43,442 nucleotides of DNA, from NCBI GenBank assembly GCA_030145205.1, contig JAQYVZ010000027.1, positions 1 to 43,442 of the forward strand, read 5' to 3'. Source of the stretch: Desulfuromonadales bacterium (lineage in GTDB: Bacteria > Desulfobacterota > Desulfuromonadia > Desulfuromonadales > BM103). Under the pieces are notes generated by a model, which was given only the letters and a program-made list of their open reading frames with translations, ran no database searches and was not told the origin of the DNA. Both the position numbers and the translations under genes were made by a program. This document shows positions 13,799-39,425 of the stretch, in pieces; position 1 is the stretch's first letter, and every line of letters starts with the position of its first letter.

Positions 13799-13902
13799 CT
13801 AACTTTTCATTACAACCATAATTTCGGAAGCATGAAGTCTCCCGGTCGTATGGGGTGGTGTCGCTTCCAGTCATGCATCAGTAACTTGTGGGAGGAGGCG
13901 CT

Positions 13903-15834
13903 ATGTCGGGAGAGTTGTCTCGAAATTGGGGTCGGGTTGTTGTGCTGTTTGTCGGTGGCCTGATTCTGTCGGGCCTTGTTGCGGGAACAGTCAGTGCTGC
14001 GGGCATTGCCTTTGTCTCGCCGGGGGAGGGCGTTGAAGCCACGACCAGCAAGCCCCCGGTTGCCTGTGACGTGGGCGTGCCCGTCTCGAATCAGAATCTG
14101 CTGGTCATGCTCGACGGCATTGATGTCACCGGCGCTCTCGATTTCACCTCGACCGGCTTTTCCTATAAGCCGATCCAGCCGCTGCCCAACGGGCCGCACC
14201 AGCTCTACCTGGTGATTTATGCTGCCGATGGTAGTGCCGCAGAACAGATTTTTTCCTTCAGCACATTAACCAAGATTTCCAGTAATACACAGATTTCGGC
14301 TGTCTACGAGCAGGTGCTGGACAAGTCGGATCACCTGCACCAGGTGCCGCATCGCAATGTTGCGGCCAACCTCGGCAATACCACGACCTTCACGCAGGGC
14401 AACTGGCAGATGGGGATGACGACCAACCTGCGCTGGCTCGATCGGAGTACGTCGATCTACGCCCCGGAAAAGAAGGGGATGGACCTAGTCAATTACCTGA
14501 TCAGCGGTCAATATCAGAAGGATGACCTGACCTTGCAGATCAATGCCGGCGACCTGCAGATCCAAGAAACCCAGAATACCGTGATGGGCCTGGCGCGCCG
14601 CGGTGTGCAGACTCGCTTCAACTACAAGGGGTTATCGCTGGATGGTTTTGTGGTGGACAGTGAGCAGCTGTTTGGCATTCAGGAGGGTAGCGGCCTGGAG
14701 TTTGACTCCTCCAAAAATATCAAGGGTGTCTCCGGCGGCTTCAGCCTGCTGGATAACTCTCTGAAGCTAAGGGCGATTTACGTGACCGGCGTCGAGGAGA
14801 GCAACTCCTTCGGCATCTATGATGCGGACAGTGGCGAACGGGAAGGCGATGTTCTCGGTTTCCTGCTGCAGTACCAACTGCTCGACGGCAAGCTGAATCT
14901 TGAAGGCGAATATGATCGGTCCGATTTTGATGGAAATACGGCGGACGAATTTTCAGGCGAAAAAGACAAGGCCTGGACCCTGCGTGCCAACGGCTACGCA
15001 GGCAGCTATTCTTACCAGGCTGTTTACGAGTATACCGGGCCGGATTACGAGGTGATCGGCAACCCGGGGCTGCAGCGCGACCGGGAAGGCTTTACCCTGA
15101 TGGGCGGCGTTCAGAAGACCAACCATGCCCTCAACGTGAGTGCCTCCCGCTATGAGGACAACGTCGAAGAGGATAGCCGTTTGCCGCAGATGGAGACCTC
15201 GACTCTTTCGGCTGATTACTCCTTCAACCGTTTCCCGACCCTGCCGATGGGACTCAGTTTCCAGAAGACCATCATGGATAGCACCATGGTGCCGGAGGGC
15301 GGGTTGTCGTACCGTATCGATACCAGCATGTACGGCGCCCGCGTCAACTATCTCAAGGGCCCATGGAACTTCGGCTTCAATGCCAACTACTCGCTGCAAG
15401 ACGATAAGACCGAAAGCGATTACGACACCACTAACCAGACCTACAGCTTTATCCCGACCTACTACGCGGAGACCTTGTCGTTTTCCCCCAACTTGATGTT
15501 CAATCGGTCCACTGATGAAACCACCGATGTGGACACGGATACCTTGACGGCGACTCTCGATCTGCGCGGCAATTTGCTGAACGGCGTGGTTTCCTACGAG
15601 TTGGCCGGAACCTTCAACCGGATGGAAACCAGCAACGACACCATGGAGATGGATATGTACAGCGCCAATGCGCAGGTTGCTTATCACTTCCTGCAGGAAT
15701 GGGCCGGGTTTCTGAACCCTTCGGTGGGGATCCGTGGATTGTACAACCGGACCGACGATAAGGTGTCTGACCGGGACGATGATGAATTTGCCCTGTTCCT
15801 GGTGCTTTCTTCCAGCATGGGCTTTGCATTTTAA
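13903..15834 (+). CDS. Outer-membrane beta-barrel protein with N-terminal Ig-like domain
   Basis: A 643-aa exported protein. The signal peptide ends near residue 32 (GTVSAAG). Residues 33-115 form an Ig-like domain with a single cysteine (PPVACDVGV). From about 120 to the end, alternating polar and hydrophobic residues with many aromatic strand ends indicate a large beta-barrel, and the chain ends in phenylalanine (SSSMGFAF), as expected for outer-membrane insertion by the BAM machinery. No plug or TonB box is seen. GGGAGGAGG precedes the ATG at 13903; a GTG at 13888 would include that ribosome site. It is the first gene of the exported-protein operon, 12 bp before the next gene. It could be an anchor, pore or export channel for the following proteins; which one is unknown. 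Confidence 0.82.
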   Translation: MSGELSRNWGRVVVLFVGGLILSGLVAGTVSAAGIAFVSPGEGVEATTSKPPVACDVGVPVSNQNLLVMLDGIDVTGALDFTSTGFSYKPIQPLPNGPHQLYLVIYAADGSAAEQIFSFSTLTKISSNTQISAVYEQVLDKSDHLHQVPHRNVAANLGNTTTFTQGNWQMGMTTNLRWLDRSTSIYAPEKKGMDLVNYLISGQYQKDDLTLQINAGDLQIQETQNTVMGLARRGVQTRFNYKGLSLDGFVVDSEQLFGIQEGSGLEFDSSKNIKGVSGGFSLLDNSLKLRAIYVTGVEESNSFGIYDADSGEREGDVLGFLLQYQLLDGKLNLEGEYDRSDFDGNTADEFSGEKDKAWTLRANGYAGSYSYQAVYEYTGPDYEVIGNPGLQRDREGFTLMGGVQKTNHALNVSASRYEDNVEEDSRLPQMETSTLSADYSFNRFPTLPMGLSFQKTIMDSTMVPEGGLSYRIDTSMYGARVNYLKGPWNFGFNANYSLQDDKTESDYDTTNQTYSFIPTYYAETLSFSPNLMFNRSTDETTDVDTDTLTATLDLRGNLLNGVVSYELAGTFNRMETSNDTMEMDMYSANAQVAYHFLQEWAGFLNPSVGIRGLYNRTDDKVSDRDDDEFALFLVLSSSMGFAF

Positions 15835-15846
15835 GGAGAACTGGCA

Positions 15847-17397
15847 ATGAAACGAATTCTTTCAATATTAGGGCTGTTTCTGGTCTTGTTGTCGGTGAGC
15901 TCTGTTGCCAAAGCAGAGATTGAAGGCTTTACTGTTCTTCCCAGCCCGGCGACTGCTGGCCAGCTTGTAACGGCGACCGTAACGGTAGATGGTGCCCTTA
16001 CACCCAGCACAGTCTCAGTCGATTTTGGTGATGGCAGCGCGCCGAGCATTCTGGCCTTTGCTGCCGTTACTACTGACCAGATTCGGACAGCGACCCACAT
16101 TTACACGTCGCCTCCTGCGTTTGCCGCCAGCTACTTGGTTCAGGCGACGCCCGATACCAGCCTCGGAGGATCCATGTGGGAAGCCACACTCGTCGTCAAT
16201 TGCCCGACGCAGGTGATTACCACGGCGGCGTTGCCGCCCGCAACGGTTGGGCAGTTTTACAGTGCTCAGCTGCTTTCCAGCGGTGGTGTCTTCCCCGTGT
16301 CCTGGAGCGTGGGTGCGGATGGAGACCCCCTTCCGACAGGGCTGACCTTGTCGCCGACGGGCCTGATCAGCGGGACTCCGACGCAGGCAATTAGCGCGAA
16401 TGTTTCCTTTGAAGTGACTGACAGCTGCGGGCCGACAACGACGGTCAAACTCCTGGCTTTATCTGTCTCCTGTCCGGCGTTGAATGTCGCGACATCAGCG
16501 TTGCCTGCCGGCATCGTCGGTCAGCCCTACAGCGCCCAATTGCTGTCAAGCGGCGGGGTTGCCCCCGTGACCTGGGCGCTTGAGGATGGTGCAGGTTTTC
16601 TTCCCAATGGATTAATGATTACCCCGACCGGTTTGATTATGGGAACCCCCACAACCTATGGGCTCTCTGTTTTCGCGGTCAACGCTGAGGACAGCTGCAA
16701 CCCTGTCGCTCAGATTGAGGAAAAAGATCTCTCAATAAATATCGACACACCCGTGACGACAGAATTGACCATTACCCGAATGCAACTTTCGTTCGACAAT
16801 GGTCGGGCGGAAACCACGGTCAGCCGTAACCAGCCGGGTCTGCGTGTCGTGGCCGATCTGCGGTTTGATGGCTCCGGGCTATTGAGAGGCTACTGGGAAG
16901 TCGACGGACGTTTCTTGGCACCGGTCAACCAGCACCTGATCTATGGCAAGAGCATCCGGCTGACCTCGCCGGCAGTACCTTTCCTGCCGACCTTTGTCGA
17001 AGGGACGCATCGGGTGCGGCTGGTGATCACCGATCCCGAGAATGAGATCCCCTTCCCGGCGGCGCTCTATTACGTGACGGCAGAAGAAGCGACGGCTGAT
17101 CTCGCCCCGCTGCGCACCGCCGAGCCGCGCAACCACGCCGAGCTGCCGTTTGCGCCGGTGACGTTCAACTGGGAAACGGCTGGGAGTGCGACCACCTACC
17201 TGGTGGAGTTCTTCATTATTGACAGTGAAAAGCCGATCGCAGCCGCATTCACCAAGGGGACAGCCTACGACCTGCCTGAGACGATCCTCACCGACAGTTT
17301 TTCTGCCGGCAAGGCGTATCGCTGGTGGGTGAAGAGCTTTGATGCAGACGGCAACCTGATGGGGGTCAGTGAACTCTCTCATTTTGTATTCGAATAA
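15847..17397 (+). CDS. Secreted Ig-repeat surface protein (PKD-like plus two He_PIG domains)
   Basis: A 516-aa exported protein. The signal peptide ends at AKA (residue 23). A PKD-like domain follows (VDFGDGSAPS to THIYTSP, about 28-118). Then come two copies of a putative Ig (He_PIG) domain, each with VGQxYSAQLLSSGGV near its start and LxPTGLIxGTPT in the middle (about 119-205 and 206-300). The remaining C-terminal part has an unassigned beta-rich segment and a fibronectin-III-like end. Such folds are usual in surface adhesins and periplasmic binding modules. AAGGAG lies 9 bp upstream. It has no catalytic motif. The next gene follows after 30 bp. Confidence 0.85.
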   Translation: MKRILSILGLFLVLLSVSSVAKAEIEGFTVLPSPATAGQLVTATVTVDGALTPSTVSVDFGDGSAPSILAFAAVTTDQIRTATHIYTSPPAFAASYLVQATPDTSLGGSMWEATLVVNCPTQVITTAALPPATVGQFYSAQLLSSGGVFPVSWSVGADGDPLPTGLTLSPTGLISGTPTQAISANVSFEVTDSCGPTTTVKLLALSVSCPALNVATSALPAGIVGQPYSAQLLSSGGVAPVTWALEDGAGFLPNGLMITPTGLIMGTPTTYGLSVFAVNAEDSCNPVAQIEEKDLSINIDTPVTTELTITRMQLSFDNGRAETTVSRNQPGLRVVADLRFDGSGLLRGYWEVDGRFLAPVNQHLIYGKSIRLTSPAVPFLPTFVEGTHRVRLVITDPENEIPFPAALYYVTAEEATADLAPLRTAEPRNHAELPFAPVTFNWETAGSATTYLVEFFIIDSEKPIAAAFTKGTAYDLPETILTDSFSAGKAYRWWVKSFDADGNLMGVSELSHFVFE

Positions 17398-17427: not shown

Positions 17428-19149
17428 ATGATGAATTGGGGAAGAGGGATAACTCTGTTCATAATGATGATCGGTGTCTGTTCGGTTGCCTTCGCGGCGC
17501 CGCTGCAGCTCAAGCCGGTCAGTCCGATCAGTTCGGTAAAGCCAGCTACGCCAACAGCTTTGCAGCCCGTTATGAAAACGGTTGTGCCGGTGGTTGCCAA
17601 GACCGGTGTGTCGGCAGTTAATCCGCGCGTTTTGAAGTTGCAATCTGGAGATCCGGCCAAGCAGGTCTCTCTGGCCGGCAGCGCGCTTGACAAGGCGACC
17701 AGCGCCCAACTGCTGCAGAACAACCGGCCAGCCACCGGTATGAACGTACAATTGCTCGGCGGTTCACCAGGGATGCGGCCGGTGCGGATCAGCGCGACAT
17801 CGAGTGCCGCGGCTGGCAACTACTCCTTACGCCTGGTGGCCGGAATGACGCGTATCGATGTGCCGCTTACCACGTTCAGCGTGTTGGTGGCCAAGGCTGT
17901 TCAAACTCTGGCTCCTGCGGCAAGGCTCGCCAGCAGTACTCCCGCAGTCGCAAAGCTCGCCGGTAGCGCTCCTGCAGTGGCACAGCCGACCATGGCTGTT
18001 CAGCCGACCAACCCGATGACTGTCAAGCCGGTGGCGCCGATTCGCTCTGTCAAAACGATGCCCATAAAGCCGGTAGCACCGAAAGTTCCAACAGTCCAAA
18101 ACGGTAACCTGGCGAATGCGGCGGGTTCGGCGCTCAACCCGATGTTAATGAACAAGTCATTGATGCAGGTAACGCGTCCGGCAGCTGGCTACGTCTCATG
18201 CAAGGGCAAGACCCAGCCGATTCAGTGGAGCCGGGATACGAGCGATCTCGGTCCGGTTAAAATTACCCTGAGGGCCTACAACCAGGACGTCAAGGTGATT
18301 GCCAACAGCACGACCGATATAGGGCAGTACGACTGGCTGATTCCGGACGATCCGGCTCTGGGGAGCCCCAACTACACGATCCGGGTGCAGAAGGTGGCCG
18401 ACAGCACCAAGTTTGGTGACAGTGGTCAGTTCAATATTTCAGTGTGTGATGTGACCCAGGCGGGTGTGCTGCCGCAGGGTGAGCAGGCGACATTGGGAGG
18501 CGGGACTCCTGTCATCCCGACTGGGGGTGGTTTCTCCGCACCAGGAGTGAACCCTCAGCCATTAACCCTTGGAAGCGTCAAACTTCTGGAGCCTCCAAGC
18601 AAGGGCCTGGCAAAATATGTTGTTGATGCAATCACATATGCAAGCCATGGTCTCACAACAAAGAGCCCCGATTCTTTGAAGGTTGGAACTCCCATAACAC
18701 TTGTCGCAGAATGCCCGACCGGTAGTTCCCTGCGAAAACTGGATCTTTTCACGCTTGGAGGTTTAGCTGCCTCCGAACAGTGGACCGGCAACACTCAAAA
18801 AGCACAAAAAATGTTTCATGATTTTGAGCTGGCGTCTGCTACGGCGATAAAATCGTTTCATTGTACAGACCCGGATGTACTTCACTCCTCGGATATCACC
18901 GTCAATATTGTCGCAGAACTGACTTGTGAAGCACCAGAAGTGCCTCCTGTCAGAGTTGAAGCTTCGTTGCCGTACCCGGTTCAGTTGACCTGCGATACGC
19001 GGCTGCCCCATCAGGCGCCACAGACGGTTGTCGAGTGGGAACATATCTGCCCAGATCCGTACGTCATCGATGGAACGAGCAAAAAGAGCCTCAAAAGTCG
19101 GTCACGTGATGCAAATGACCCCATGCTGTGTAGACAACCGGGACAATAG
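17428..19149 (+). CDS. Exported protein with Ig-like/Kre9-like domains and C-terminal CP...C module (paralogue of 20550-22943)
   Basis: A 573-aa exported protein with a signal peptide ending at AFA (about residue 23). A Lys/Pro/Val-rich low-complexity stretch is followed by an Ig-like domain (about 55-155) nearly parallel to that of the 797-aa protein at 20550: both read LGGSP...RPxRI...YxLRxxxGxTRIDVPxTTFS. A linker with repeated PVAP, KPVAP and AxLAxS elements follows. Next is a domain resembling the Kre9/KNH-like family (IQWSRDTSDLGPVKITL to SGQFNIS). The C-terminal third has ECPTGSSLRK and ends in CPDPYVIDGT (C541) with a last cysteine 27 residues later (C568). AAGGAGG lies just upstream; an ATG three bases further in is equally possible. 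Function unknown. Confidence 0.8.
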   Translation: MMNWGRGITLFIMMIGVCSVAFAAPLQLKPVSPISSVKPATPTALQPVMKTVVPVVAKTGVSAVNPRVLKLQSGDPAKQVSLAGSALDKATSAQLLQNNRPATGMNVQLLGGSPGMRPVRISATSSAAAGNYSLRLVAGMTRIDVPLTTFSVLVAKAVQTLAPAARLASSTPAVAKLAGSAPAVAQPTMAVQPTNPMTVKPVAPIRSVKTMPIKPVAPKVPTVQNGNLANAAGSALNPMLMNKSLMQVTRPAAGYVSCKGKTQPIQWSRDTSDLGPVKITLRAYNQDVKVIANSTTDIGQYDWLIPDDPALGSPNYTIRVQKVADSTKFGDSGQFNISVCDVTQAGVLPQGEQATLGGGTPVIPTGGGFSAPGVNPQPLTLGSVKLLEPPSKGLAKYVVDAITYASHGLTTKSPDSLKVGTPITLVAECPTGSSLRKLDLFTLGGLAASEQWTGNTQKAQKMFHDFELASATAIKSFHCTDPDVLHSSDITVNIVAELTCEAPEVPPVRVEASLPYPVQLTCDTRLPHQAPQTVVEWEHICPDPYVIDGTSKKSLKSRSRDANDPMLCRQPGQ

Positions 19150-19164
19150 GAGGGGAGAATAACT

Positions 19165-19938
19165 ATGGCTGACAATCAAAGCAAATTCACGAAAACCTGC
19201 TGGGTGCTCATGGCCGGCGCATTTTTAGTCCTCTTGATCTGCGGCTCAAGTTTTGCCGCGCATTACGTGATCAATCCTGCGACAGGTCAGGGGATCGAAT
19301 CTGGAGATCTCTGGGTGAAAATTGTTGAAGAACGAGTTGTTTCGACATCGCCGGGAATAAAGATTCTCGGTGGAAACGTTGAGTTTGACGATGCACTGAC
19401 ACTCAATATGCATTGTCCAGAAGATTATGTGTTCATAGATGGCTGGGGTGCCGTCGATCTCAGCTCAGGATGGGAGAATATGGTGGGGTTACGATGTATA
19501 AGGCCTAACGTGAGTGCATCTGACTCGATGGCGGGTGACCCTCAAGCCACTATAGATTTCGTGTGCGGAAGCAGACATGCCCGAGGGGTGAAAGTCCCAG
19601 GTTTTACCCTTGTGACTGAAAGAGCCCTTGTGGACGCTTGTCAGCAGGGGAAGACATCGTTCAACGCATGGGTGCGTATCCAGGCCACCTGCGATGCTAC
19701 AAGTTATATTGACAGCGGCACGGTCTTTGGTGACGGCGGGATGCAAAAACCTGAGACAACCGTTCAGGTTGCCATTGGCCTGACGTGTGAAGATGTCCCC
19801 GAGGCAGGCACGACAAAGGCTTCCGTATCACCAAGCCTTTTCCATTATGAGTGCCCTGAAGGTTTTATTATCGAAGCCACTGGCAGGAGAGTTCACGAAT
19901 CCCCCAAAGGGGAAAAACATATGTGCATTAGAGAGTAG
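19165..19938 (+). CDS. Exported cysteine-rich protein with two copies of the CP...C module
   Basis: A 257-aa protein with a signal sequence ending near SFAA (residue 32). The mature part is beta-rich with eight or more cysteines. The CP...C module occurs twice: C84 in MHCPEDYVFIDG paired in pattern with C111 in LRCIRPN, and C230 in YECPEGFIIEAT with C254 in MCIRE at the very end. Cysteines between them (FVCGS, DACQQ, ATCDA, LTCED) match positions in the other family members. AGGAGGGGAG precedes the ATG. It lies 15 bp after the 573-aa protein and 47 bp before the repeat protein. No known domain is recognised. Confidence 0.75.
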   Translation: MADNQSKFTKTCWVLMAGAFLVLLICGSSFAAHYVINPATGQGIESGDLWVKIVEERVVSTSPGIKILGGNVEFDDALTLNMHCPEDYVFIDGWGAVDLSSGWENMVGLRCIRPNVSASDSMAGDPQATIDFVCGSRHARGVKVPGFTLVTERALVDACQQGKTSFNAWVRIQATCDATSYIDSGTVFGDGGMQKPETTVQVAIGLTCEDVPEAGTTKASVSPSLFHYECPEGFIIEATGRRVHESPKGEKHMCIRE

Positions 19939-19985
19939 GACTTTGTTCCTCTCAATGTGATCCCGGACAGTAAAAGGAGTGCGAT

Positions 19986-20474
19986 ATGGCGATGCGATTT
20001 AATGTGCTGCTGGTGACCTTCGTATGGATTTGTTTCGGAACAGGTATGCAAGTGCAGGCCATGGAAAAAGCCGAAGCGGATGAACGCACCAACCCTTTGA
20101 TGATGGAGAAGGCTGAGGCTGATGAGCGCACCAATCCATTGATGATGGAAAAGGCGGAAGCCGACGAACGCACCAACCCCCTTTCCATGGAGAAGTGCTG
20201 TATCGATGAACGCAACAACCCGCTCAGTCCGCAGAGTATTGCACGCACGCCAGGCACGGCGACGCTCAAGCCAGGACAAAGGTTGCCCGTACAGAACGGC
20301 GGCATCTTGACCATGCAGGGTCGGCAGCTCCTTCTGGTGAACAGGAATGGCAGCCGACAAATGTTCCCGTCCGGTGCGACGATTTCAAAACAACTTAACG
20401 GTCAGGTCGGGATCTGGGGAACAGACGGTGCTCCGATCTGGGGCACCGACGGGGCCGCTCTGGGGCCCAAATAA
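19986..20474 (+). CDS. Exported protein with four 14-residue tandem repeats (MEKAEADERTNPL)
   Basis: A 162-aa protein with a signal peptide ending at VQA (residue 25). The mature N-terminus consists of four tandem 14-residue units: three read MEKAEADERTNPL plus one residue, and the fourth is MEKCCIDERNNPL, which introduces two adjacent cysteines. The rest is a beta-rich segment (LKPGQRLPVQNGGILTMQGR...) and a C-terminal double IWGTDGA repeat. AAAGGAG precedes the ATG. It sits inside the exported-protein operon but lacks the C-terminal CP...C module. The double cysteine could anchor it to its cysteine-rich neighbours by disulfide; that is inference. Function unknown. Confidence 0.78.
   Translation: MAMRFNVLLVTFVWICFGTGMQVQAMEKAEADERTNPLMMEKAEADERTNPLMMEKAEADERTNPLSMEKCCIDERNNPLSPQSIARTPGTATLKPGQRLPVQNGGILTMQGRQLLLVNRNGSRQMFPSGATISKQLNGQVGIWGTDGAPIWGTDGAALGPK
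20061..20228 (+). repeat. Four in-frame 42-bp tandem repeats
   Basis: Units at 20061-20102, 20103-20144, 20145-20186 and 20187-20228. The first three differ at many third codon positions but encode the same 13 residues, so the peptide has been kept while the DNA drifted. The fourth is more divergent. Confidence 0.92.
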
Positions 20475-20549
20475 TCGCATCAAGAATTCACTTTTCGGGT
20501 CCGTCTCGGGCTTGATGAATGTATCCATCCTGTTTTGAAGGGGACGTCT

Positions 20550-22943
20550 ATGTCGAGGCAAAGGATTGTTACCATTCTGGCACTTGTTCTGGTCTGTGCC
20601 TTCTGTTCTCCCGCGTTTGCAGCACCGATACAGCTCAAGGCGGTCAGTCCGCTCACGCCTGTAACGCCACAGGCTGTCAAGCCGGTAACGCTACAAGTTG
20701 TCAAGCCGGTGACACCGCAGGTTGTCAAACCGGCGATTGGATCAGTGATCCCGGTTGTCGCTGCAACCCGTGTCACCCTGGTCAATCCGCGCACTCTCAA
20801 GCTTGAGGCTGGCGCCCCAGCCAGGCAGATCACATTGGGAGGCAGCGGCCTCGACAAGGCAAGCAGCGCGCAGCTTTTGCGAAACAATCAACCCGCTACA
20901 GGAGTGAGTTTGCAACTTCTGGGCGGATCCCCTGCCTCGCGACCGCTCCGAATTGGTGCTCTCAAAAATGCAACTCCGGGAACCTACACCCTCAGGGTGA
21001 TGGTCGGAGTGACCCGGATCGACGTTCCCCCGACAACTTTCAGTCTCCAGGTGACGTCAACCATCAAGGTGGTCAACCCTGTTTCGTCAGCGGTGGCGCC
21101 GGCAGCGAATAATGTTGCAACTGCGGGGCTGGCAGGCAAACTCCAGATACAGCAACCGACGCTTCTCCGGGTGCTGCGCCCGGGGACCGGACAAACGTTG
21201 TATCGCACCGTGGATACCTCGATCAAGTGGATTCCTGACCCTAAGATCCCCGGCCCCGTAAAACTTTTGCTGCTGACCAACGGACAAAGTAGCAAATTGA
21301 TTGCGACGGTGCCCGACAATGGGACCTACACATGGAAAGTTCCCTTCGATCTCAAGGACACCCCGGTTCATAAAATCAAGGTGGAAAAGGGAACAACCAA
21401 GGTGGTCTCTGCCGTTGGCGGTTTGTTTGCCACCAAGCGGTTTGATCCTTTCGCGAAGGGTCCGAACACTTTGGATGGTCAGGCCTTGAGCGATATTCTT
21501 TCTGGACCGGGCGATGGTGGCAGTGGCTCGTCGGGACCGAGCATTGACCCTTCACATCTTCCGGCCGACCGTCAGGTCGCCAGCCGGGTTGCTCTGCCGG
21601 CAGTTCAGATGCCAGCCTCTGCCGGAGGCTTGCAGCAAGCGCCCTTACAGACCTCCGGGCGTGTTGCAGGTTTGCCAGCCGGGTCCGAAGAGGAGGGTGG
21701 CCTGGAAGAAATCCATATGGGCGGAGGAACTTTCCCACGACCCGGTTCACCGACTCTGGACGATTTGCTTGCTGGAGGATCAGAGGGCTCGGCTGGGACC
21801 GGTACGCCAAAAGTCTTGCCGACAAAGACTGTCCAGTTAGCCTCTCAAGCCAAAATGACGGGCCTGAAACCGGCAGCTCAGGGTTCCGGTGTTGCTTTGG
21901 CACAGGCTGGCTTGCAGGGTAAGGTGGAGGTGAACAACACCGGCAGTTTGGCTGTGACGAGTCCGATGGCAGATGATAGCTGGTGTGTGAGTGAATCGCA
22001 GAATATCACCTGGCGAAGTTCAGGCTCGACCTACAAAGACTTGAAAATCTTGCTGCTCTCCAATGGTTCGCCCGTTAAAACCATTGTCGAGAGTACGATG
22101 GTGCTTGACCAATCCTTTGCCTGGAACGTGTCCACGGCTCCCGGGACTTATCAGGTGGAGCTGGTAGGCCGGGATGGCCAAGGTCTCACAATCAAAAGTC
22201 AGAGCGGCAATTTCGAGATAGGCACATGTGGCAATGTTGCCGCGATGGCTGCGGCAGCGGCAGGAACCATGAGCGGCGGGGTTGGGATGCCTGGTGGGAT
22301 TGCGGAGTCTGCGGCCAAACCTCAGACCGTTGTGCCGGTGTCGAGTACAAAGGTGGATCTGAAAATGACTGGTGCAACCTTGGTCGGTGAGCTGAAGCCT
22401 GGCACGATTGATATTTCCGGAAGTAAATTGGTCAAGGCTGATGGCGGGCTTTGGCTGTCGCATGACGGACATGTGGTCTTTGCCAATTCAATTGAAGCGG
22501 AGATCGTTTGCCCCGAGGGGAGTAGCTTGACAAGGGCCAACGTGTCAACCATCGATTCCCTTAAAGGTCCGGACATGACTTTTCCGAGTGGCAGCGCTGC
22601 GGATCGGCAGATTCTATTTAGTGCGGTGCCGGTGGTTAATGACGAAATCCTTGAGCAACTTTGTCCGGATGGTGGGACCGATCAGCTAACATGGTTCAAT
22701 CCCAATGTGCAGGCAACGTGGGTTTGTGAGACTGACAATACTGTTGATTCAAAGAGGCAGTCGATTGGCAATTATCCGGTGACGGTCAATTGTGACATGC
22801 GCGAGGCTACGGCTTCGACTCTGTCCTTCTCGGGGTTCAAGTATGAGTGCCCGGAGGGTTTCGTTATCGAAGGAACGAACTCACGAACCTATCTTCCTTC
22901 CGATAATAACCGTGAAGGCGAGAAGAACTGTGTGAGGCCATAA
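20550..22943 (+). CDS. Large exported multi-domain protein with Ig-like/Kre9-like domains and C-terminal CP...C module
   Basis: A 797-aa protein. Signal peptide to AFAA (about residue 26), then a low-complexity stretch with repeated (T)xQxVKPVTxQ units, then an Ig-like domain (about 60-165) paralogous to the one at 17428. Two Kre9/KNH-like domains follow, the first near residues 205-290 (VLRPGTGQ to VSAVGGLF) and the second near 470-555 (VTSPMADDSWCVSES to SGNFEIGTC), with a long Gly/Ser/Pro-rich linker between. The C-terminal quarter has VCPEGSSLTRANVSTID, like the 573-aa paralogue, and ends with YECPEGFVIEGT (C767) and CVRP (C794). The ATG at 20550 follows AAGGGG; a TTG at 20535 would precede that site. 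Its stop overlaps the next start. Function unknown. Confidence 0.8.
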   Translation: MSRQRIVTILALVLVCAFCSPAFAAPIQLKAVSPLTPVTPQAVKPVTLQVVKPVTPQVVKPAIGSVIPVVAATRVTLVNPRTLKLEAGAPARQITLGGSGLDKASSAQLLRNNQPATGVSLQLLGGSPASRPLRIGALKNATPGTYTLRVMVGVTRIDVPPTTFSLQVTSTIKVVNPVSSAVAPAANNVATAGLAGKLQIQQPTLLRVLRPGTGQTLYRTVDTSIKWIPDPKIPGPVKLLLLTNGQSSKLIATVPDNGTYTWKVPFDLKDTPVHKIKVEKGTTKVVSAVGGLFATKRFDPFAKGPNTLDGQALSDILSGPGDGGSGSSGPSIDPSHLPADRQVASRVALPAVQMPASAGGLQQAPLQTSGRVAGLPAGSEEEGGLEEIHMGGGTFPRPGSPTLDDLLAGGSEGSAGTGTPKVLPTKTVQLASQAKMTGLKPAAQGSGVALAQAGLQGKVEVNNTGSLAVTSPMADDSWCVSESQNITWRSSGSTYKDLKILLLSNGSPVKTIVESTMVLDQSFAWNVSTAPGTYQVELVGRDGQGLTIKSQSGNFEIGTCGNVAAMAAAAAGTMSGGVGMPGGIAESAAKPQTVVPVSSTKVDLKMTGATLVGELKPGTIDISGSKLVKADGGLWLSHDGHVVFANSIEAEIVCPEGSSLTRANVSTIDSLKGPDMTFPSGSAADRQILFSAVPVVNDEILEQLCPDGGTDQLTWFNPNVQATWVCETDNTVDSKRQSIGNYPVTVNCDMREATASTLSFSGFKYECPEGFVIEGTNSRTYLPSDNNREGEKNCVRP

Positions 22944-23974
22944 TGACTGTGAGGGCGAACAACATGAAAATATCTCAAACGATAAGAGAATCATCGCGTC
23001 ATAAATCGCATCTCCCTTTATTGCAACAGGTGCTGCCAGTATTTTTTGTTGTATTCTGCTTACTCCTTTCCATTCCAAGGGTGGCCAATGCGAATTGGGT
23101 ATCAGATGCAGCGAATGCTGCCTCGGATGCTGTCTCGGATGCTGCGAGTGCTGCCGGGGATGCTCTCAACGAGGGTGCTATGGATTTGGGTGAAGGTCTG
23201 CGAGACTTAGGCAGTGCAGTGACTCCAGACGTTGTGGAGGATGCATTGGACGATGCTGGTGCTTGGGTCGGTCAGTACGGTCAGTATGTTGATCCGAATA
23301 ATATAGTCGATGGCGCGGAGGCTGCAGCGGATTTTTTTACAAATGGTTCTAGTAGCGGAACACCGACGGTTCCGAAGTTGTTTCCACCAACGCAACGCGA
23401 GATGTCAGCAAGTTTCAATGGTAAGGTGAGCGGTCCAAATCTTTACTTGCGAAATGATGGGGTCATCCTCACAGAAATAAATGCAGGGGTTGAAGGTGGC
23501 CCTTTGTGGGTGCTAAGGCAGCTTGAACTGACAACTCCGCATGATCATGTGACCGGGCAATTCCCAAATCCTTCTGGCTTGCCTGTCATTTTTAATCCGA
23601 TTGAGCGTAAAGTATCTATAACGACGGTGGAGAACGTATTGAATGCTTGTCGAAGTTCATCGTCAGGGAAGGTTAACTTCCGCATTCCGGTTACGATCAA
23701 GGCAACGTTGGATCCGAACCCTGCCGTTTTCACGGATGGTCTTATGGATGACCAGAGAGTGGAGCAGATGAAGGGCCGGGTTGAGGAGAGAGCCAGCGAG
23801 CTGATTTTTGCGCTGAACTGTTCGTCTACAGCGGTTGTTAAAAAGGTTTACAATGAAACTTGCCCCGCAGGGTTTGTTCTTGAGAGTACAAACGAACCAA
23901 TCACTCAGCACGAGCTCTCTGAAATAGCTTCTGCGTCTTCTATTCAACGTAGCCGTTGTGTCAGGCCAAACTGA
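22943..23974 (+). CDS. Exported protein with Ala/Asp amphipathic helix region and C-terminal CP...C module
   Basis: A 343-aa protein whose ATG overlaps the upstream stop (TAATG), preceded by GAGG. An ATG at 22964 with GAGGG 8 bp upstream is an equally good start and gives a cleaner N-terminus (MKISQTIR). A signal-type helix (VLPVFFVVFCLLLSI) ends near ANA. Next is an alanine/aspartate-rich amphipathic region with repeated SDAA(S/N)AA units (about residues 52-90), likely helical. A beta-rich domain follows. It ends with NETCPAGFVLEST (C307) and CVRPN (C339), the same module as its three relatives but with a longer spacing of 32. It is the last gene of the operon; a hairpin follows at 24011. 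Confidence 0.75.
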   Translation: MTVRANNMKISQTIRESSRHKSHLPLLQQVLPVFFVVFCLLLSIPRVANANWVSDAANAASDAVSDAASAAGDALNEGAMDLGEGLRDLGSAVTPDVVEDALDDAGAWVGQYGQYVDPNNIVDGAEAAADFFTNGSSSGTPTVPKLFPPTQREMSASFNGKVSGPNLYLRNDGVILTEINAGVEGGPLWVLRQLELTTPHDHVTGQFPNPSGLPVIFNPIERKVSITTVENVLNACRSSSSGKVNFRIPVTIKATLDPNPAVFTDGLMDDQRVEQMKGRVEERASELIFALNCSSTAVVKKVYNETCPAGFVLESTNEPITQHELSEIASASSIQRSRCVRPN

Positions 23975-24010
23975 TTTTCTTGAAGTAGGGGTTTGGCAGT
24001 GTTTCACCGG

Positions 24011-24038
24011 AAAGGCGGCCAATCGGCCGTCTTTCTGA
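24011..24038 (+). terminator. Hairpin terminator after the exported-protein operon
   Basis: AAAGGCGGCC (24011-24020) pairs with GGCCGTCTTT (24025-24034) around an AATC loop, with one G-T pair. The T-run after it is short, so termination may be partial. Confidence 0.6.
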
Positions 24039-33692: not shown

Positions 33693-34340
33693 ATGACCAG
33701 AACAGACAATCGCAAATCGCAAGGAGCATACAGCCGGTCCGTCAGGCTGCTCACGTCAATCGGGTTCATGGTTGGCTTGCTGCTGAGTTGTGCCTGGCTG
33801 CTGACCGGATGTGACCAGCAGCCGGAAGAAGACGTTTCTTCAACACAGGCCGATACCCAGCAGGAGCCGACGGTGCGCGAAGTAATTCTTTATTTCTCCG
33901 CTCCGGATGGCAGCCGCCTGGTCGCGGAGCACCGGCTGGTTGAGGGTTGTTTTGATGAAACCGAGTGCATTCAGGCGGTCGTTGCCGCTTTGGCTGCTGG
34001 ACCGGCCGACGCGACTGCCGCGGTCCTGCCGACCGCCGTCGTACTGCAGGCACTCAGCATGGACGGCTCTCTGGCCTCGCTGGATTTTAACGCTGCATTT
34101 GTCACGGCGCATCCGGGCGGGACCCGCAGTGAACTCTTGAGCATTTATGCTCTGGTGGACACGCTGGCGGCTAACTTCCCTCATCTGCGTCAGTTTAACT
34201 TCCTGGTCGACGGTGCACCGATCGAGACGATCAAGGGCCACGTTGACTTGCGCCAGCCGATCACTCCTGATTTCAGCCTGGTCCAGGAAATGTCCGCAGC
34301 CGCGGGTGATCTGTCCAATGTCCCTGCAAGGAGCGAATAA
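33693..34340 (+). CDS. GerMN domain lipoprotein
   Basis: A 215-aa protein with an N-terminal signal helix ending in a lipobox (LLTGC, cysteine at about residue 40). The rest is a GerMN-type domain (VREVILYFSAPDGSRLVAEH to GAPIETIKGHVDL, about 60-200), a small alpha/beta fold found in spore-germination proteins and in many non-sporulating bacteria. It is thought to act at the envelope. The ATG at 33693 is 4 bp after murI; the longer frame from 33645 overlaps murI. Its stop is one base before the metH start. Confidence 0.85.
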   Translation: MTRTDNRKSQGAYSRSVRLLTSIGFMVGLLLSCAWLLTGCDQQPEEDVSSTQADTQQEPTVREVILYFSAPDGSRLVAEHRLVEGCFDETECIQAVVAALAAGPADATAAVLPTAVVLQALSMDGSLASLDFNAAFVTAHPGGTRSELLSIYALVDTLAANFPHLRQFNFLVDGAPIETIKGHVDLRQPITPDFSLVQEMSAAAGDLSNVPARSE

Positions 34341-34341
34341 G

Positions 34342-36759
34342 GTGAACCGTTTCAGACAGACCATACAACAGCGGGTCCTGATCCTTGACGGAGCGATGGG
34401 AACCATGCTGCAAGAGCGCGGTCTTGCTCCCGGCGGTTGCCCGGAGGAGATGAATCTGCAGCACCCGGAGGTGGTGACCGGCATTCATCGCGAATATGTT
34501 GAGGCGGGTGCCGATATCGTTGAGACCAACACTTTTGGTGGTTCCCGCGCCAAACTGGCGCATTACGGTCTGGAGGATCGGGTCGTCGAAATCAACCGTA
34601 AAGCGGTGGAGCTGGCGCGGCAGGCGTGCACGCCGGAGACCTTTGTCGCCGGATCGGTCGGCCCGACCGGGCGTTTTCTCGAGCCGGTCGGCGACGCCAG
34701 CTTCGACGAAATGGTCGAAATCTTTGCCGAGCAGATTGCCGCGCTGGCTGATGCCGGCGCCGATCTGATCAATTTCGAGACTTTTCTGGATATTCGGGAG
34801 CTGCGGGCCGGGGTGATCGCTTGCCACGATGTCTGCGACCTGCCGATCATCGCCCAGATGACCTTCGACGATGCCGGACGGACCGTGCTGGGAACGCCTC
34901 CCGAAGCGGCCGCCGTGACGTTGGACGCGTTGCAGGTCGATGTCCTTGGTTCGAATTGCGGTTTGGGCATTGACGGTATTTTCTCGATCCTGCAGGCGAT
35001 GCGCACGGTTTCATCGAAACCGCTGATTGCCCAGGCCAATGCCGGTTTGCCGGTGCTGCAAGATGGCGAGACCGTGTTCCCCGGCACCCCGGAGGAGATG
35101 ACCGCTTATCACAGCCGCCTGCTCGAGATGGGCGCGCGGGTGATCGGCGGCTGCTGCGGCACCACCCCGCAACACATCCGGGTCATGCGCCAGGCTTTGG
35201 CCGGGCTGGATGCCAGCTGGACGCCGCCGCCGCGCCGCGGGGCTTTGTCGAGCCGCGCCGCCTGCGTGGAGATTGGCGGTGCCGCGTCCTGCGCCCTGAT
35301 CGGCGAACGCATCAACCCGACCGGCAAAAAAGGCTACAGCGAAGAGCTGCGTTCCGGCAAGACCGCATATATCCGCAAGGAGGCCCGCGAGCAGGTTGCG
35401 GCCGGCGCCGATCTGCTCGACCTGAACTGCGGGCTGCCCGGCATTGACGAGGCGCAGGCCCTGGAACGGGCCGTGTTCGCGGCCAGCGGTGCGGTGACGA
35501 CGCCCCTGGTGCTGGATACCTCCGACCCGGTCGCCCTGGAGCGCGGGCTGAAGGCGGCCGATGGCAAGGTGCTGATCAACTCGGTGACGGGAGAAGCGCG
35601 CAGCCTGGAACGGGTTCTGCCCCTGGCGCATCGCTATGGTGCGGCGGTCATCGGCCTGACCTTGGATGAGAAGGGGATCCCGGAAACCGCGGAAGGCCGG
35701 CTGGAAATCGCCCGGCGGATTCGTGACGCTGCCCGCGCTGTCGGCCTGCCCGACCAGGACTTGGTTATCGACTGTCTGACCCTGACCGTCTCGGCTGAAC
35801 AGAAGCGGGCCCTGGAGACTTTGCGGGCGCTGCGTCTGGTGCGCGATGAGCTTGGCCTGGCAACCGCCCTGGGGGTCAGCAACATCTCCTTCGGCCTGCC
35901 GGCGCGACCGGTGTTGTCTGCGGCGTTTTTCGCCATGGCACTCGAGGCGGGGCTGAAGGCGGCGATCATCAACCCGAAAGATGTTCGGATGATGGATGCC
36001 TTTCGGGCTGCACGCGTCCTGCTCTGCCAGGATGTACGGGCAGAAGAATATATCGCGCATTATGCTGAGCACGCCCAGATTGACTCCGCGGCAGCCGCAC
36101 CTGTTCAGGAAGAGGCGGATGTTTTTCAGCGGCTTGCTACCGCGATTATTGCCGGGGACCTCGATGGCATCGTGTCGTTGGTCGATGAAGCCCTGCGGGA
36201 GGGCGTGCCGGCGATGCAGATCAGTAACGATGGCCTGCTGCCCGGCCTGGAAGAGGTTGGTCGGCGGTTTGCCGACAACCGGATTTTCCTGCCGCAGGTG
36301 ATGCAGTCGGCGGAGACCATGCAGGCGGCTTTTGCGCATCTGAAGGAAATGCTGGGGGGACAGAGCGGTCCGTCTCTCGGCAAGATTCTGATGGCGACGG
36401 TCGAAGGCGATATCCACGATATCGGTAAGAATATCTTGTGCACCCTTCTGGAAAACCACGGTTTCGAGGTGATTGACCTGGGGAAAAATGTGCCGGCCGC
36501 AAAGATTCTCGAGGTCGCCCTCGAACAAAAGGTGGATGCCGTTGGGTTGTCGGCCCTGATGACGACGACCCTGCACCAGATGGATATCACTCTCGGCCAA
36601 CTGCGTGAGGCGGGCATCAAGGTGTTCACCATGGTCGGTGGGGCGGTGGTCACCCAGGAATACGCCGACAGCATCGGTGCGGATGTCTATGCCGCCGATG
36701 CCATGGAGGCGGTCGCGAAAGTGAAGCAGATCCTGGGTTCAACCGCTAAAACGCAGTGA
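34342..36759 (+). CDS. metH: B12-dependent methionine synthase lacking the C-terminal reactivation domain
   Basis: An 805-aa protein. The homocysteine domain (1-300) has the zinc ligands C206, C271 and C272 (GGCCGT). The pterin-binding domain (about 310-570) has GERINPTGKKG and DLNCGLPG. The B12 cap (about 590-670) precedes the cobalamin domain (680-800) with the DxHxxG motif, H692 in GDIHDIGKN. E. coli MetH is about 1,230 aa because of a C-terminal S-adenosylmethionine reactivation domain; none is present here and the chain simply ends. Reactivation must use a separate protein or be unnecessary in strict anaerobes. The GTG start follows AGGAG by 8 bp. An alternative is another corrinoid methyltransferase, but the domain order favours methionine synthase. 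Confidence 0.92.
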   Translation: MNRFRQTIQQRVLILDGAMGTMLQERGLAPGGCPEEMNLQHPEVVTGIHREYVEAGADIVETNTFGGSRAKLAHYGLEDRVVEINRKAVELARQACTPETFVAGSVGPTGRFLEPVGDASFDEMVEIFAEQIAALADAGADLINFETFLDIRELRAGVIACHDVCDLPIIAQMTFDDAGRTVLGTPPEAAAVTLDALQVDVLGSNCGLGIDGIFSILQAMRTVSSKPLIAQANAGLPVLQDGETVFPGTPEEMTAYHSRLLEMGARVIGGCCGTTPQHIRVMRQALAGLDASWTPPPRRGALSSRAACVEIGGAASCALIGERINPTGKKGYSEELRSGKTAYIRKEAREQVAAGADLLDLNCGLPGIDEAQALERAVFAASGAVTTPLVLDTSDPVALERGLKAADGKVLINSVTGEARSLERVLPLAHRYGAAVIGLTLDEKGIPETAEGRLEIARRIRDAARAVGLPDQDLVIDCLTLTVSAEQKRALETLRALRLVRDELGLATALGVSNISFGLPARPVLSAAFFAMALEAGLKAAIINPKDVRMMDAFRAARVLLCQDVRAEEYIAHYAEHAQIDSAAAAPVQEEADVFQRLATAIIAGDLDGIVSLVDEALREGVPAMQISNDGLLPGLEEVGRRFADNRIFLPQVMQSAETMQAAFAHLKEMLGGQSGPSLGKILMATVEGDIHDIGKNILCTLLENHGFEVIDLGKNVPAAKILEVALEQKVDAVGLSALMTTTLHQMDITLGQLREAGIKVFTMVGGAVVTQEYADSIGADVYAADAMEAVAKVKQILGSTAKTQ

Positions 36760-36822
36760 GCACCCCTTGTCTGGAAGCCTGGGTTGTGCAACAATCTTTC
36801 TTGGAGTGTGAGGAAGAGGAAC

Positions 36823-37377
36823 ATGGTCGTAGGATTTAACCACAATTTTCAATACAAGAGCGTGACCTACCATATCCAGACGGAAGATGGCGGGTTGGGC
36901 AGTCCGAACATTATCACCCTGCTGTATCATGGCGGGACGATTCTGGCGTCGCGTAAAACCTCCTATGCCGACATCACCAAGGCCGACCAGCTGGAAAAGG
37001 TGGTCGAGGACCTGATGAAAGAACAGCATAAGGGAATGTTGCGCAGCCTCAAGAATGGTGAGTTTGATGATGTGATCGCCCGTTACCAAGCCAGAACCGG
37101 AAAAAAGGCCGCCCCTGCCGAAGCGCCTGCCCCCAAAGCAGCCGTCCCCGAAACTCCTGTTGATCCGGCCAAGGTTGAAACTGAGCCGGTCGAGGCGACC
37201 CGGTCGCCCCGGGAAACAGCGGTACTCGCGCCGAAACAGGCGGCACCGCAACCGAAGCAGGCAGCACCGCAACCGAAGCAGGCAGCACCGCAACCGAAGC
37301 CGGTGGCGAAGAGCCCCTCGGTCGCAGCGAGCCTGGATGAAATTGTGCTGTCCTACCTGATGGGTGATGAAAAGTAA
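36823..37377 (+). CDS. Conserved hypothetical protein with Pro/Gln/Lys-rich tail
   Basis: A 184-aa protein. The N-terminal 85 residues (MVVGFNHNFQYKSVTYHIQT ... EVVEDLMKEQHKGMLRSLK) form a conserved domain known from delta-proteobacterial hypothetical proteins. A proline/alanine/lysine-rich linker follows, including three PKQAAPQ repeats, and then a short conserved end (SLDEIVLSYLMGDEK). There is no signal peptide. AGGAAGAGGAAC precedes the ATG. The next gene starts inside its 3' end. No function can be assigned. Confidence 0.82.
   Translation: MVVGFNHNFQYKSVTYHIQTEDGGLGSPNIITLLYHGGTILASRKTSYADITKADQLEKVVEDLMKEQHKGMLRSLKNGEFDDVIARYQARTGKKAAPAEAPAPKAAVPETPVDPAKVETEPVEATRSPRETAVLAPKQAAPQPKQAAPQPKQAAPQPKPVAKSPSVAASLDEIVLSYLMGDEK
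37231..37293 (+). repeat. Three in-frame 21-bp tandem repeats (PKQAAPQ)
   Basis: Units at 37231-37251, 37252-37272 and 37273-37293. The second and third are identical and the first differs at two bases, so the array is recent compared with the 42-bp array at 20061. Confidence 0.9.
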
Positions 37378-37909
37378 ACGGCCGGGTTATGTGTTCTGCC
37401 GCCGCCGGGAGTCTCAGCGCGGCGCAGCGCTGCTGCTGGTCCTGGTGGCTGTGACGATTCTCGGCCTGGCAACCGGGATCGCCGGGCAGAGCTGGCGCAG
37501 CCTGGTACAGCGCTCCAAAGAAGCCGACCTGCTCTGGTGTGGCGCGCAGTATCGACAGGCTATTGAAGGCTATTATCATGTCAAGCAGGGCCCCAAAAAC
37601 AGGTACCCTGCCAAGCTGGAAGACCTGCTGAAGGATCCACGTTTTCCGCAGCCGGTCCGCCACTTGCGGCGCTTGTACAAAGACCCGATGACCGGGGAGG
37701 ACTGGGAAATCATCAAGTCCCCGGAAGGAGGTATTGCCGGGGTTCGCAGCAGCAGCACCCTGAAGCCTTTTCGGCAGGACGGTTTCCCGAAGGAAGAGGA
37801 AGCCTTCGCCAAGAAGGACAGCTACCGGGAGTGGGAGTTCGTTTACCAGCCCGGACGGACGACATCGAAAACGGTCAAGTCGTCGACTTCTGCAGCATCG
37901 TCTCAATAA
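37367..37909 (+). CDS. Type II secretion pseudopilin-like protein
   Basis: A 180-aa protein with a type IV pilin-like N-terminus: a basic leader (SKRPGYVFCRRRESQRG), then a hydrophobic helix (AALLLVLVAVTILGLATGI). The processing site lacks the usual glutamate at position 5, so it is a divergent, minor-pseudopilin-like member. A soluble domain follows with LEDLLKDPRFPQPVRHLRRL and DPMTGEDWEI, typical of GspG/PulG relatives in Geobacter. It overlaps the end of the previous gene by 11 bases. A GTG one codon upstream is also possible. No other secretion gene is nearby. Confidence 0.72.
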   Translation: MKSKRPGYVFCRRRESQRGAALLLVLVAVTILGLATGIAGQSWRSLVQRSKEADLLWCGAQYRQAIEGYYHVKQGPKNRYPAKLEDLLKDPRFPQPVRHLRRLYKDPMTGEDWEIIKSPEGGIAGVRSSSTLKPFRQDGFPKEEEAFAKKDSYREWEFVYQPGRTTSKTVKSSTSAASSQ

Positions 37910-37935
37910 TCGTAGTCGCATCCAGAGGTTCGCCC

Positions 37936-39423
37936 TTGTTCTACAGCAGCCTGATCGGTCGCATCATCGTCTTCTCCTTCCTGTTGTTTTCCTTTGCAAT
38001 CGGTGCGGTGTCCTTTGTACACATCCACCGTGAACATCAGCATATCACCAGCTCCAGCCAGTCCGCTGCTGACCTGATGCTGTCGGTGGTCGAGCGGTCG
38101 ATTGTCGGTGCCATGAGCATCGGCAAAAGCCAGGAAGTCCAGAAGATCTTTGAAGAGGTTGTGCATGATCCTCTGTTGATCGGGGTGCGCATTTTTCATC
38201 CCAATGGCCGGATTCTCAACTCGGCGGCTCCGGCGGAAATCGGGCAGATGGTGAACGCCTACGATCTGGAGGCCTTCCGCCAGGGAGAAGTGCATACGAC
38301 ATTTGCCGGACCGGATGGTGAGGTCCTTGGTGTCGTCAGGCCGATCTATTTTGAAGAGCGTTGTCTCGGTTGCCACGACCCGGCTGAAAAAGTCATTGGG
38401 GTGCTCAACGTCGATTATTCACTGGCCGCAATGAATGATCAGATGATCGATTCGTCGCAGTTTTTCATCCTGTCGATGCTGGTCATGATCGTTCTTCTGA
38501 CCGGTGGTATCTCGTTGATCGTGCACCGCTTTGTCTGCCATCCGATCAGTTTGATCACCGAAAAGATGGCCCAGGTGGAGTCGGGCGATCTGACGACCCG
38601 CTTCGAGACCCGTCGGACTGACGAGATCGGGAGCCTGATGGTCAGCTTCAACTCGATGGTCGAGCGTCAGCAGTTGGCCAACGAGGAGCTCAATAGCTGG
38701 CATCAGCAGCAGATGGAGCGGGTGGATCGTTTGGCTTCTGTCGGCGAGATGTCGGCGGGCATCGCCCACGAGATCAAGAATCCGTTGGCCGCGATCAGCG
38801 GTGCCATTACCGTGCTGGCCTTGGACTTTACAGACGAAGACCCCCGCCGTGAGGTGGTCAGCAAGGTGCTTGAACAGATTGCGCGGCTCGATAAGGCCGC
38901 CACCGACTTGCTTTATTTCGGCAAGCCGGGTGACCCGGCATTCGACCTGGTCGATGCGAACGAACTCCTTAAAAAAACTCTGTTTTTTGTGGCTCAGCAT
39001 CCCGAAGCGAGCAATGTTCACCAGGTCAAAGAGTTCACCCGCAACCTGCCCCCGGTCTGGGTGGACGAAAAACAGTTGCAACAGGTCTTTTTTAACGTCA
39101 TCATTAATGCTATCCAGGCGATGACAAAAGGCGGGACCCTGTTGTTGCAGACCGAATTGAGCAGCCAGGGCGACAAAGAGTATGTCAAAGTGCTGGTGGG
39201 TGACAGCGGTCCCGGTATTCCGGAGAAGACGCTGCAGAAAATATTCACACCTTTCTTTACCACCAAAAACCAAGGCACCGGCCTTGGCCTGGCGATCTGT
39301 CGCCAGTTGATGGAGCAACAGGGCGGAACCATCGAGATTACGAGTCGCAGCGGCGACGGCACGCGGGTGACCCTTACCCTGCCGGTTCGACCGTTGACCA
39401 ATTTTGAACAGAAGGGGAATTAG
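37936..39423 (+). CDS. Sensor histidine kinase with heme c-binding periplasmic sensor
   Basis: A 495-aa kinase. A first helix (residues 7-28), then a periplasmic domain (about 30-172) with a c-type heme motif CLGCH (C143-H147) in a PAS-like fold, a second helix (about 176-199), HAMP (200-252), then the kinase core: phospho-accepting H278 in AGIAHEIKNPL and ATP-binding motifs (VIINAIQAM, GDSGPGIPE, GTGLGLAICR). Heme sensor domains of this kind occur in Geobacter and detect redox or gas ligands. No good ATG/GTG start exists; the TTG at 37936 follows AGAGG by 7 bp and is preferred. A longer frame (37831) would overlap the previous gene. Its stop is 2 bp from the regulator gene. Confidence 0.9.
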   Translation: MFYSSLIGRIIVFSFLLFSFAIGAVSFVHIHREHQHITSSSQSAADLMLSVVERSIVGAMSIGKSQEVQKIFEEVVHDPLLIGVRIFHPNGRILNSAAPAEIGQMVNAYDLEAFRQGEVHTTFAGPDGEVLGVVRPIYFEERCLGCHDPAEKVIGVLNVDYSLAAMNDQMIDSSQFFILSMLVMIVLLTGGISLIVHRFVCHPISLITEKMAQVESGDLTTRFETRRTDEIGSLMVSFNSMVERQQLANEELNSWHQQQMERVDRLASVGEMSAGIAHEIKNPLAAISGAITVLALDFTDEDPRREVVSKVLEQIARLDKAATDLLYFGKPGDPAFDLVDANELLKKTLFFVAQHPEASNVHQVKEFTRNLPPVWVDEKQLQQVFFNVIINAIQAMTKGGTLLLQTELSSQGDKEYVKVLVGDSGPGIPEKTLQKIFTPFFTTKNQGTGLGLAICRQLMEQQGGTIEITSRSGDGTRVTLTLPVRPLTNFEQKGN

Positions 39424-39425
39424 TC

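Follow-up and report, generated by a model that had tools for sequence, protein, structure and literature searches.

Four neighbouring genes of a Desulfuromonadales bacterium encode exported proteins that end in a similar two-cysteine stretch. Is this stretch a signal by which the proteins are sorted or docked, as originally predicted, or does it belong to something larger? The window examined here, meaning the whole stretch of DNA analysed (43,442 nucleotides), covers positions 1-43,442 of contig JAQYVZ010000027.1 in assembly GCA_030145205.1.

The operon and its two-cysteine tails

The genes and features concerned are listed below. Types A and B are two classes of tail-bearing protein; type A comprises the 573-, 257-, and 802-aa proteins and a 1190-aa protein from Desulfuromonas sp. 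BM522, and type B comprises the 343-aa protein and a 353-aa protein from BM522.

13888..15834, + strand: 648-aa protein, probable outer-membrane beta-barrel, with an N-terminal region of ~100 residues and the C-terminus ...MGFAF (ORF)
15847..17397, + strand: 516-aa exported Ig-domain protein (Pfam He_PIG, 2e-15)
17428..19149, + strand: 573-aa exported protein, type A, with an N-terminal domain of ~95 aa, a Kre9/KNH Ig-like domain, and the C-terminal domain (ORF; PF10342, 2.9e-7)
18583..19146, + strand: C-terminal domain of the 573-aa protein, two-cysteine tail from 19048 (profile, alignment)
19165..19938, + strand: 257-aa exported protein, type A, almost nothing but the C-terminal domain; eight mature cysteines
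19414..19509, + strand: probable internal fifth copy in the 257-aa protein, CPEDYVFIDG...CIRPN (alignment, shuffle tests)
19852..19938, + strand: two-cysteine tail at the C-terminus of the 257-aa protein
19986..20474, + strand: 162-aa protein inside the cassette, with a signal-like start (by eye) and 14-residue repeats, without the C-terminal domain (ORF)
20535..22943, + strand: 802-aa exported protein, type A, with two Kre9/KNH Ig-like stretches (PF10342, 5.2e-13); an alternative ATG may lie at 20550
22362..22940, + strand: C-terminal domain of the 802-aa protein (modelled), two-cysteine tail from 22848
22943..23974, + strand: 343-aa exported protein, type B (ORF)
23381..23971, + strand: C-terminal part of the 343-aa protein, two-cysteine tail from 23861 (39% identity to the BM522 353-aa counterpart)
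24008..24037, + strand: 13-bp GC-rich hairpin directly 3' of the last cassette gene, with a weak T run

The 648-aa protein is probably an outer-membrane beta-barrel, judging from its C-terminal Phe and sequence pattern; it has no Pfam match at E ≤ 1. It is 76% identical to its relative in a genome of the same genus (G007), 60% to that in BM522, and 53% to that in a third genome (G090), and in these three closest barrel loci an Ig-protein gene adjoins the barrel gene. Within the cassette, the 573- and 802-aa proteins are 52% identical across residues 12-211 of the latter, and the ATG of the 343-aa gene overlaps the stop codon of the 802-aa gene by 1 base. All six tail-bearing proteins, the four in the window and the two in BM522, begin with a signal-like stretch by eye. 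For the N-terminal ~95-aa domain, hhalign gives a weak hint of a TIG/IPT origin (E 0.0024, probability 12%; no Pfam match). The hairpin at 24008..24037, which does not appear in the terminator-scan list, is a possible transcript end. Two further observations concern the proteins themselves. The BM522 1190-aa protein (L013 2262-5834) carries two of the ~95-aa N-terminal domains and very long linkers rich in Pro, Val, Glu, and Ala. The 162-aa protein (19986-20474) contains a 14-residue repeat (MEKAEADERTNPLM) in three near-identical copies and a fourth, diverged one; it has no Pfam match and no match in the 15 neighbourhood loci searched.

The tails begin with CPDPYVIDGT at 19048 (573-aa protein), CPEGFIIEAT at 19852 (257-aa protein), CPEGFVIEGT at 22848 (802-aa protein), and CPAGFVLEST at 23861 (343-aa protein), with steps from cysteine to cysteine of 27, 24, 27, and 32; the step in the internal copy is 27. 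All five sites and spacings were re-checked in the sequence and agree with the original prediction. Across all six frames of the window, the strict motif CP..[FY].[ILF][ED].T is found at exactly these four C-termini and nowhere else, far beyond chance: given their composition, the four proteins (1,975 aa in total) would be expected to hold ~0.0001 occurrences. The shared motif thus holds for the C-termini, but the internal copy falls outside its strict form, and the proposed ending C[VIR]R fails in the 573-aa protein, which ends in CRQPGQ. The last cysteine lies 3-5 residues from the end in five of the six proteins, and 15 residues from it in the BM522 353-aa protein.

The tail is more conserved than the sequence upstream of it in both orthologue pairs: 54% versus 43% identity between the 802-aa and BM522 1190-aa proteins, and 55% versus 35% between the 343-aa and BM522 353-aa proteins. 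Between types A and B, identity is 19-37% in the tail and 13-21% upstream, where the alignment itself is poor. The 573- and 257-aa proteins show no excess conservation of the tail (16%, versus 17% upstream). Within the final 60 residues, none of the six proteins has a transmembrane-like stretch (maximum 19-residue hydropathy, 0.92), and the last 15 residues contain between 0 and 4 K/R.

A larger C-terminal domain and its cysteines

The tail, proposed as a module beginning at CP, is not free-standing, for among type A proteins the sequences upstream of it are also similar. In the 573-, 257-, and 802-aa proteins, the tail ends a C-terminal domain of ~190 residues with six cysteines. A profile built from the four C-terminal regions, into which only the second half of the 257-aa protein was entered, gave four matches in the source genome at E ≤ 10, all within the operon, with lengths of 186 (802-aa protein), 190 (573-aa protein), 199 (343-aa protein), and 145 residues (257-aa protein).

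The extent of the homology was assessed with the tail removed, each pairwise score being compared with 500 shuffles. Four type A pairs gave scores that none of the 500 shuffles reached: 802 versus 1190 (z 63.8), 802 versus 573 (z 9.0), 802 versus 257 (z 9.8), and 1190 versus 573 (z 8.7). The pairs 573 versus 257 (30/500) and 1190 versus 257 (10/500) were weak. Pairs between types gave variable results: for the 802-aa protein, 149/500 against 343 and 158/500 against 353; for the 1190-aa protein, 290/500 and 17/500, respectively; for the 573-aa protein, 312/500 and 43/500; and for the 257-aa protein, 6/500 and 20/500. The two types were aligned apart, because the first MAFFT alignments misplaced the upstream part of type B. 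Comparison of the type A and type B profiles gave an E value of 1.6e-5 (probability 79%), with 40 columns aligned at the tail; once the tail was removed, E rose to 0.59. From the shuffle tests and the profile comparisons with and without the tail, it is secure at the level of sequence that the tail is common to all six proteins, whereas the full domain is secure in type A only; in the 343-aa protein, the tail is securely shared with type A, and homology of the upstream remainder is only suggestive.

The domain had no above-threshold match in Pfam, NCBIfam, or PHROGs, and its profile gave none at E ≤ 1 by sequence against solved structures. The same sequence search with the barrel gave one match (E 0.42), which was disregarded. 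No title describing the domain was found among the literature matches listed (in one listing, the best 10 of 335). We conclude that the C-terminal domain is a real, significant, and under-described lineage-specific family of exported paralogues; even if ordinary paralogy should account for it, the operon defines a domain for which these three collections gave no above-threshold match.

A structure of the 802-aa protein's domain was predicted with AlphaFold2 from four rows, with a mean pLDDT of 67.9 and a pTM of 0.55; pLDDT across the five models ranged from 67.9 to 35.4, so that the prediction is usable but fragile. The model for the 257-aa protein's domain was unusable (pLDDT 40.2). Foldseek returned no match to the 802 model at E ≤ 0.001 (best E 0.028). 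Residues 1-146 of the model resemble Ig/Fn3-like and other sandwiches (best VIA-align Z 7.4), and 49 of 50 VIA-align rows end by residue 147, ahead of the tail. Many Ig-like families appear at a similar Z and none was picked; values under 8 may reflect a common arrangement alone. As modelled, the type A domain would consist of an Ig-like sandwich followed by the two-cysteine tail.

Type A has six cysteine positions, and type B has positions 2, 4, 5, and 6. Positions 1 and 3 are both present in all four A domains and both missing in the two type B proteins, and the joint absence is most simply read as the pattern left by a lost disulfide. The number of cysteines in the mature protein is even in every case: eight in the 573-, 257-, and 802-aa proteins, four in the 343-aa protein, six in the BM522 1190-aa protein, and four in the 353-aa protein (signal cut sites placed by eye). 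From this parity and the paired loss we infer disulfide closure; on the simplest reading, a 1-3 bond would be missing as a pair from type B, and a 5-6 bond would close the tail. DsbB and VKOR matches are absent from the source genome, although the operon's exported proteins hold even numbers of cysteines; the same searches were positive in 6/14 and 3/14 control genomes, respectively. This negative result speaks against disulfides forming easily here.

The fifth copy, placed inside the 257-aa protein by the original prediction, is located as claimed, with the predicted spacing: it starts at residue 84, and the next cysteine is residue 111. It aligns to the first of the cysteines conserved in type A, after which there is a 21-residue insertion. 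With CP and C held fixed, 1000 shuffles of the internal copy were scored against the six tails. The score was reached by 0/1000 shuffles for the BM522 1190 tail, 3/1000 for 343, 12/1000 for 573, 13/1000 for 802, 75/1000 for BM522 353, and 86-87/1000 for the other tail of its own protein. These mixed counts make it the weakest of the five copies, and we regard it as a probable rather than certain copy of the tail. Cys84 likely corresponds to type A position 1, which would make Cys176 its likely partner, and Cys111 may pair with Cys134 rather than with Cys84. With such pairing, the fifth copy may resemble the tail without sharing its closure.

Distribution among genomes

Barrel homologues were found in 23 of 277 genomes of the class at E ≤ 1e-10, the source genome included. 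The domain profile is far rarer, matching three of the 277 at E ≤ 0.01: the source genome, BM522, and a tail-only remnant in G006, a genome of the same family and another genus. In BM522, the gene order is barrel, Ig, A, B, with one A gene and one B gene, which overlap by 16 nt (mechanical start). The B gene thus overlaps the preceding A gene in both genomes; the 573 and 257 genes, two of the three A genes in the window, do not adjoin a B gene. The proposed co-occurrence with the barrel applies in one direction: the barrel is present in both whole-domain genomes, but the domain profile had no match in 21 of the 23 genomes with a barrel. The barrel therefore does not need the domain; the reverse dependence is possible.

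The same-genus genome G007 has the barrel and Ig genes, and the domain profile finds nothing anywhere in it. Its Ig gene is directly followed by a gene (thyX-like by eye) which in the window comes after the cassette, and from this junction and the missing domain match we infer that the cassette was either lost in G007 or gained in the source genome. In G090, the contig stops inside the Ig gene, and a domain match is absent from the whole genome. G098 and G067 have weaker Ig matches next to the barrel, and in G059 such a match lies in its vicinity.

The remnant in G006 (G006:C32:84880-84996) is a 57-aa frame containing the final 36 codons of a 343-like gene. Of its 36 residues, 31 are identical to the 343-aa protein; 14 of the 19 differing codons are synonymous and 5 nonsynonymous, and third positions account for 18 of the 27 base changes. 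This excess suggests that, until recently, selection at the protein level acted on the tail. The profile finds no other part of a 343-like gene in G006, and the barrel search finds no barrel; the remnant is likely dead now. A hairpin-like stretch lies 3' of it by eye, as in the window.

Wider searches added little. A sample of 395 genomes of the phylum gave one further match (G349; E 0.01, one internal stop), at chance level, and a match in G270 (E 0.009, one internal stop) was likewise judged to be chance. An alignment query run on a collection covering 84,980 species, by way of a single 10-residue pattern without which relatives would be overlooked, found BM522 alone (19 stretches). The 343-aa protein as a single query found no relative in genome contigs (27 pattern stretches), the 16 stretches in viral contigs included none, and plasmids gave no match.

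Several features of the barrel neighbourhoods were recorded in passing. By eye, a response-regulator gene adjoins the barrel gene at loci of distant homologues from another family of the class (L045, L047), and metH-like genes lie near the barrel at L044, L045, and L055; the same kinds of gene are found at 34147-40799 of the window, about 18-24 kb from the barrel. The G090 locus (L043 3300-4554) encodes an ECF-type sigma factor (Sigma70_r2, 1.7e-14), accompanied by a protein with sub-threshold zf-HC2 and prodomain matches only. The G067 locus (L052 13354-15517) encodes, by eye, a similar small protein and a subtilisin-like protease.

Possible roles of the tail and likeness to known systems

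Our preferred reading, which we hold at about even confidence, is that the tail is the closing part of a lineage-specific C-terminal domain of co-exported paralogous subunits in one envelope or surface assembly. The subunits would be encoded together with the barrel and the Ig protein; the domain would most likely fold outside the inner membrane, be closed by disulfides, and act as a common contact joining an A subunit and a B partner, to each other or to a shared partner, with the variable N-terminal parts reaching outward. The sorting or docking tag first proposed keeps some of its ground, as the tail lies near the C-terminus and is conserved above the upstream sequence in both orthologue pairs. 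Its general form does not: a general signal should mark many unlinked proteins, but the four matches in the source genome lie in one operon, and in three of the four proteins the tail belongs to a larger domain. Because of this confinement, which holds in BM522 too, the overlap of A and B genes, and the conservation of the tail, a contact surface among co-exported subunits fits better than a general export signal.

Plain paralogy, in which the proteins would have arisen by duplication of an ordinary exported Ig-like protein, with the tail as just a conserved closing end that has no common partner, is unlikely, though well short of remote. It accords with the tandem gene order, the restricted spread, and the additional N-terminal identity of the 573- and 802-aa proteins over ~200 residues, but it leaves unexplained why in both orthologue pairs the tail is better conserved than the sandwich, and why it is kept in A and B, whose N-terminal parts have no detected similarity.

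Rather unlikely, too, is a tag private to the operon, a tail of ~45 residues that the barrel (or the Ig protein) would recognise, thereby anchoring or exporting the four proteins. The position of the tail at or near the C-terminus in all six proteins, its conservation, and its presence in two types whose upstream parts are not significantly alike are all consistent with such a tag, as are the barrel in both whole-domain genomes, the lack of a barrel match in the genome with the remnant, and the recent protein-level selection suggested by that remnant. Against it, 21 of 23 barrel genomes, same-genus G007 among them, lack a domain match, three of the four proteins carry the tail within a larger domain, and the BM522 353-aa protein continues for 15 residues beyond the last cysteine. 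More doubtful is a self-contained docking system of one operon, in which the barrel captures the exported proteins through a cystine-closed ~45-residue tail, independently of known C-terminal sorting systems. If the tail does dock, the operon would be a small, complete model of one outer-membrane barrel gathering several exported proteins. Binding of a metal or cofactor by the tail cysteines in place of disulfides is very improbable: the lineage is anaerobic and neither DsbB nor VKOR was found in the source genome, but the even cysteine counts, the joint absence of positions 1 and 3 from type B, and the lack of CxxC spacing in the tail all speak against it.

A subunit domain of the kind we favour can be set beside several known systems. 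Pilin and chaperone-usher Ig-like proteins (EcpA, FimC, and Caf1M) are among the sandwich rows (Z 6.1 to 7.4); the aligned range stops short of the tail, the best Foldseek E is 0.028, and none of the nine proteins of the region has a usher or chaperone Pfam match. EGF-like domains resemble the tail in the wording CPEGF...C, and there is a sub-threshold Pfam match to EGF_Tme5 (E 0.026) over 10 residues of the 257-aa protein. An EGF-like domain has six cysteines in ~40 residues, whereas the tail holds two. The MYXO-CTERM signal of the myxosortase system is also C-terminal with a conserved cysteine; as described in PMC11980579, it combines a cysteine motif with a transmembrane helix and an Arg-rich end. 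The tails in the window have neither a transmembrane-like stretch nor an Arg-rich end. The C-terminal domains of type IX secretion are likewise C-terminal and shared by several exported proteins, and they are sandwich-like, as the 802 domain is modelled to be; the VIA-align rows include a chain of a RemA C-terminal domain (8gl6, Z 6.4). NCBIfam includes models of type IX C-terminal domains; searched against it at E ≤ 1, the four operon proteins matched neither these nor any C-terminal sorting family. A search for SprA_N, of the type IX translocon, was negative in the source genome, as it also was in all 14 control genomes. A further difference from type IX secretion is that the four C-terminal copies belong to one operon.
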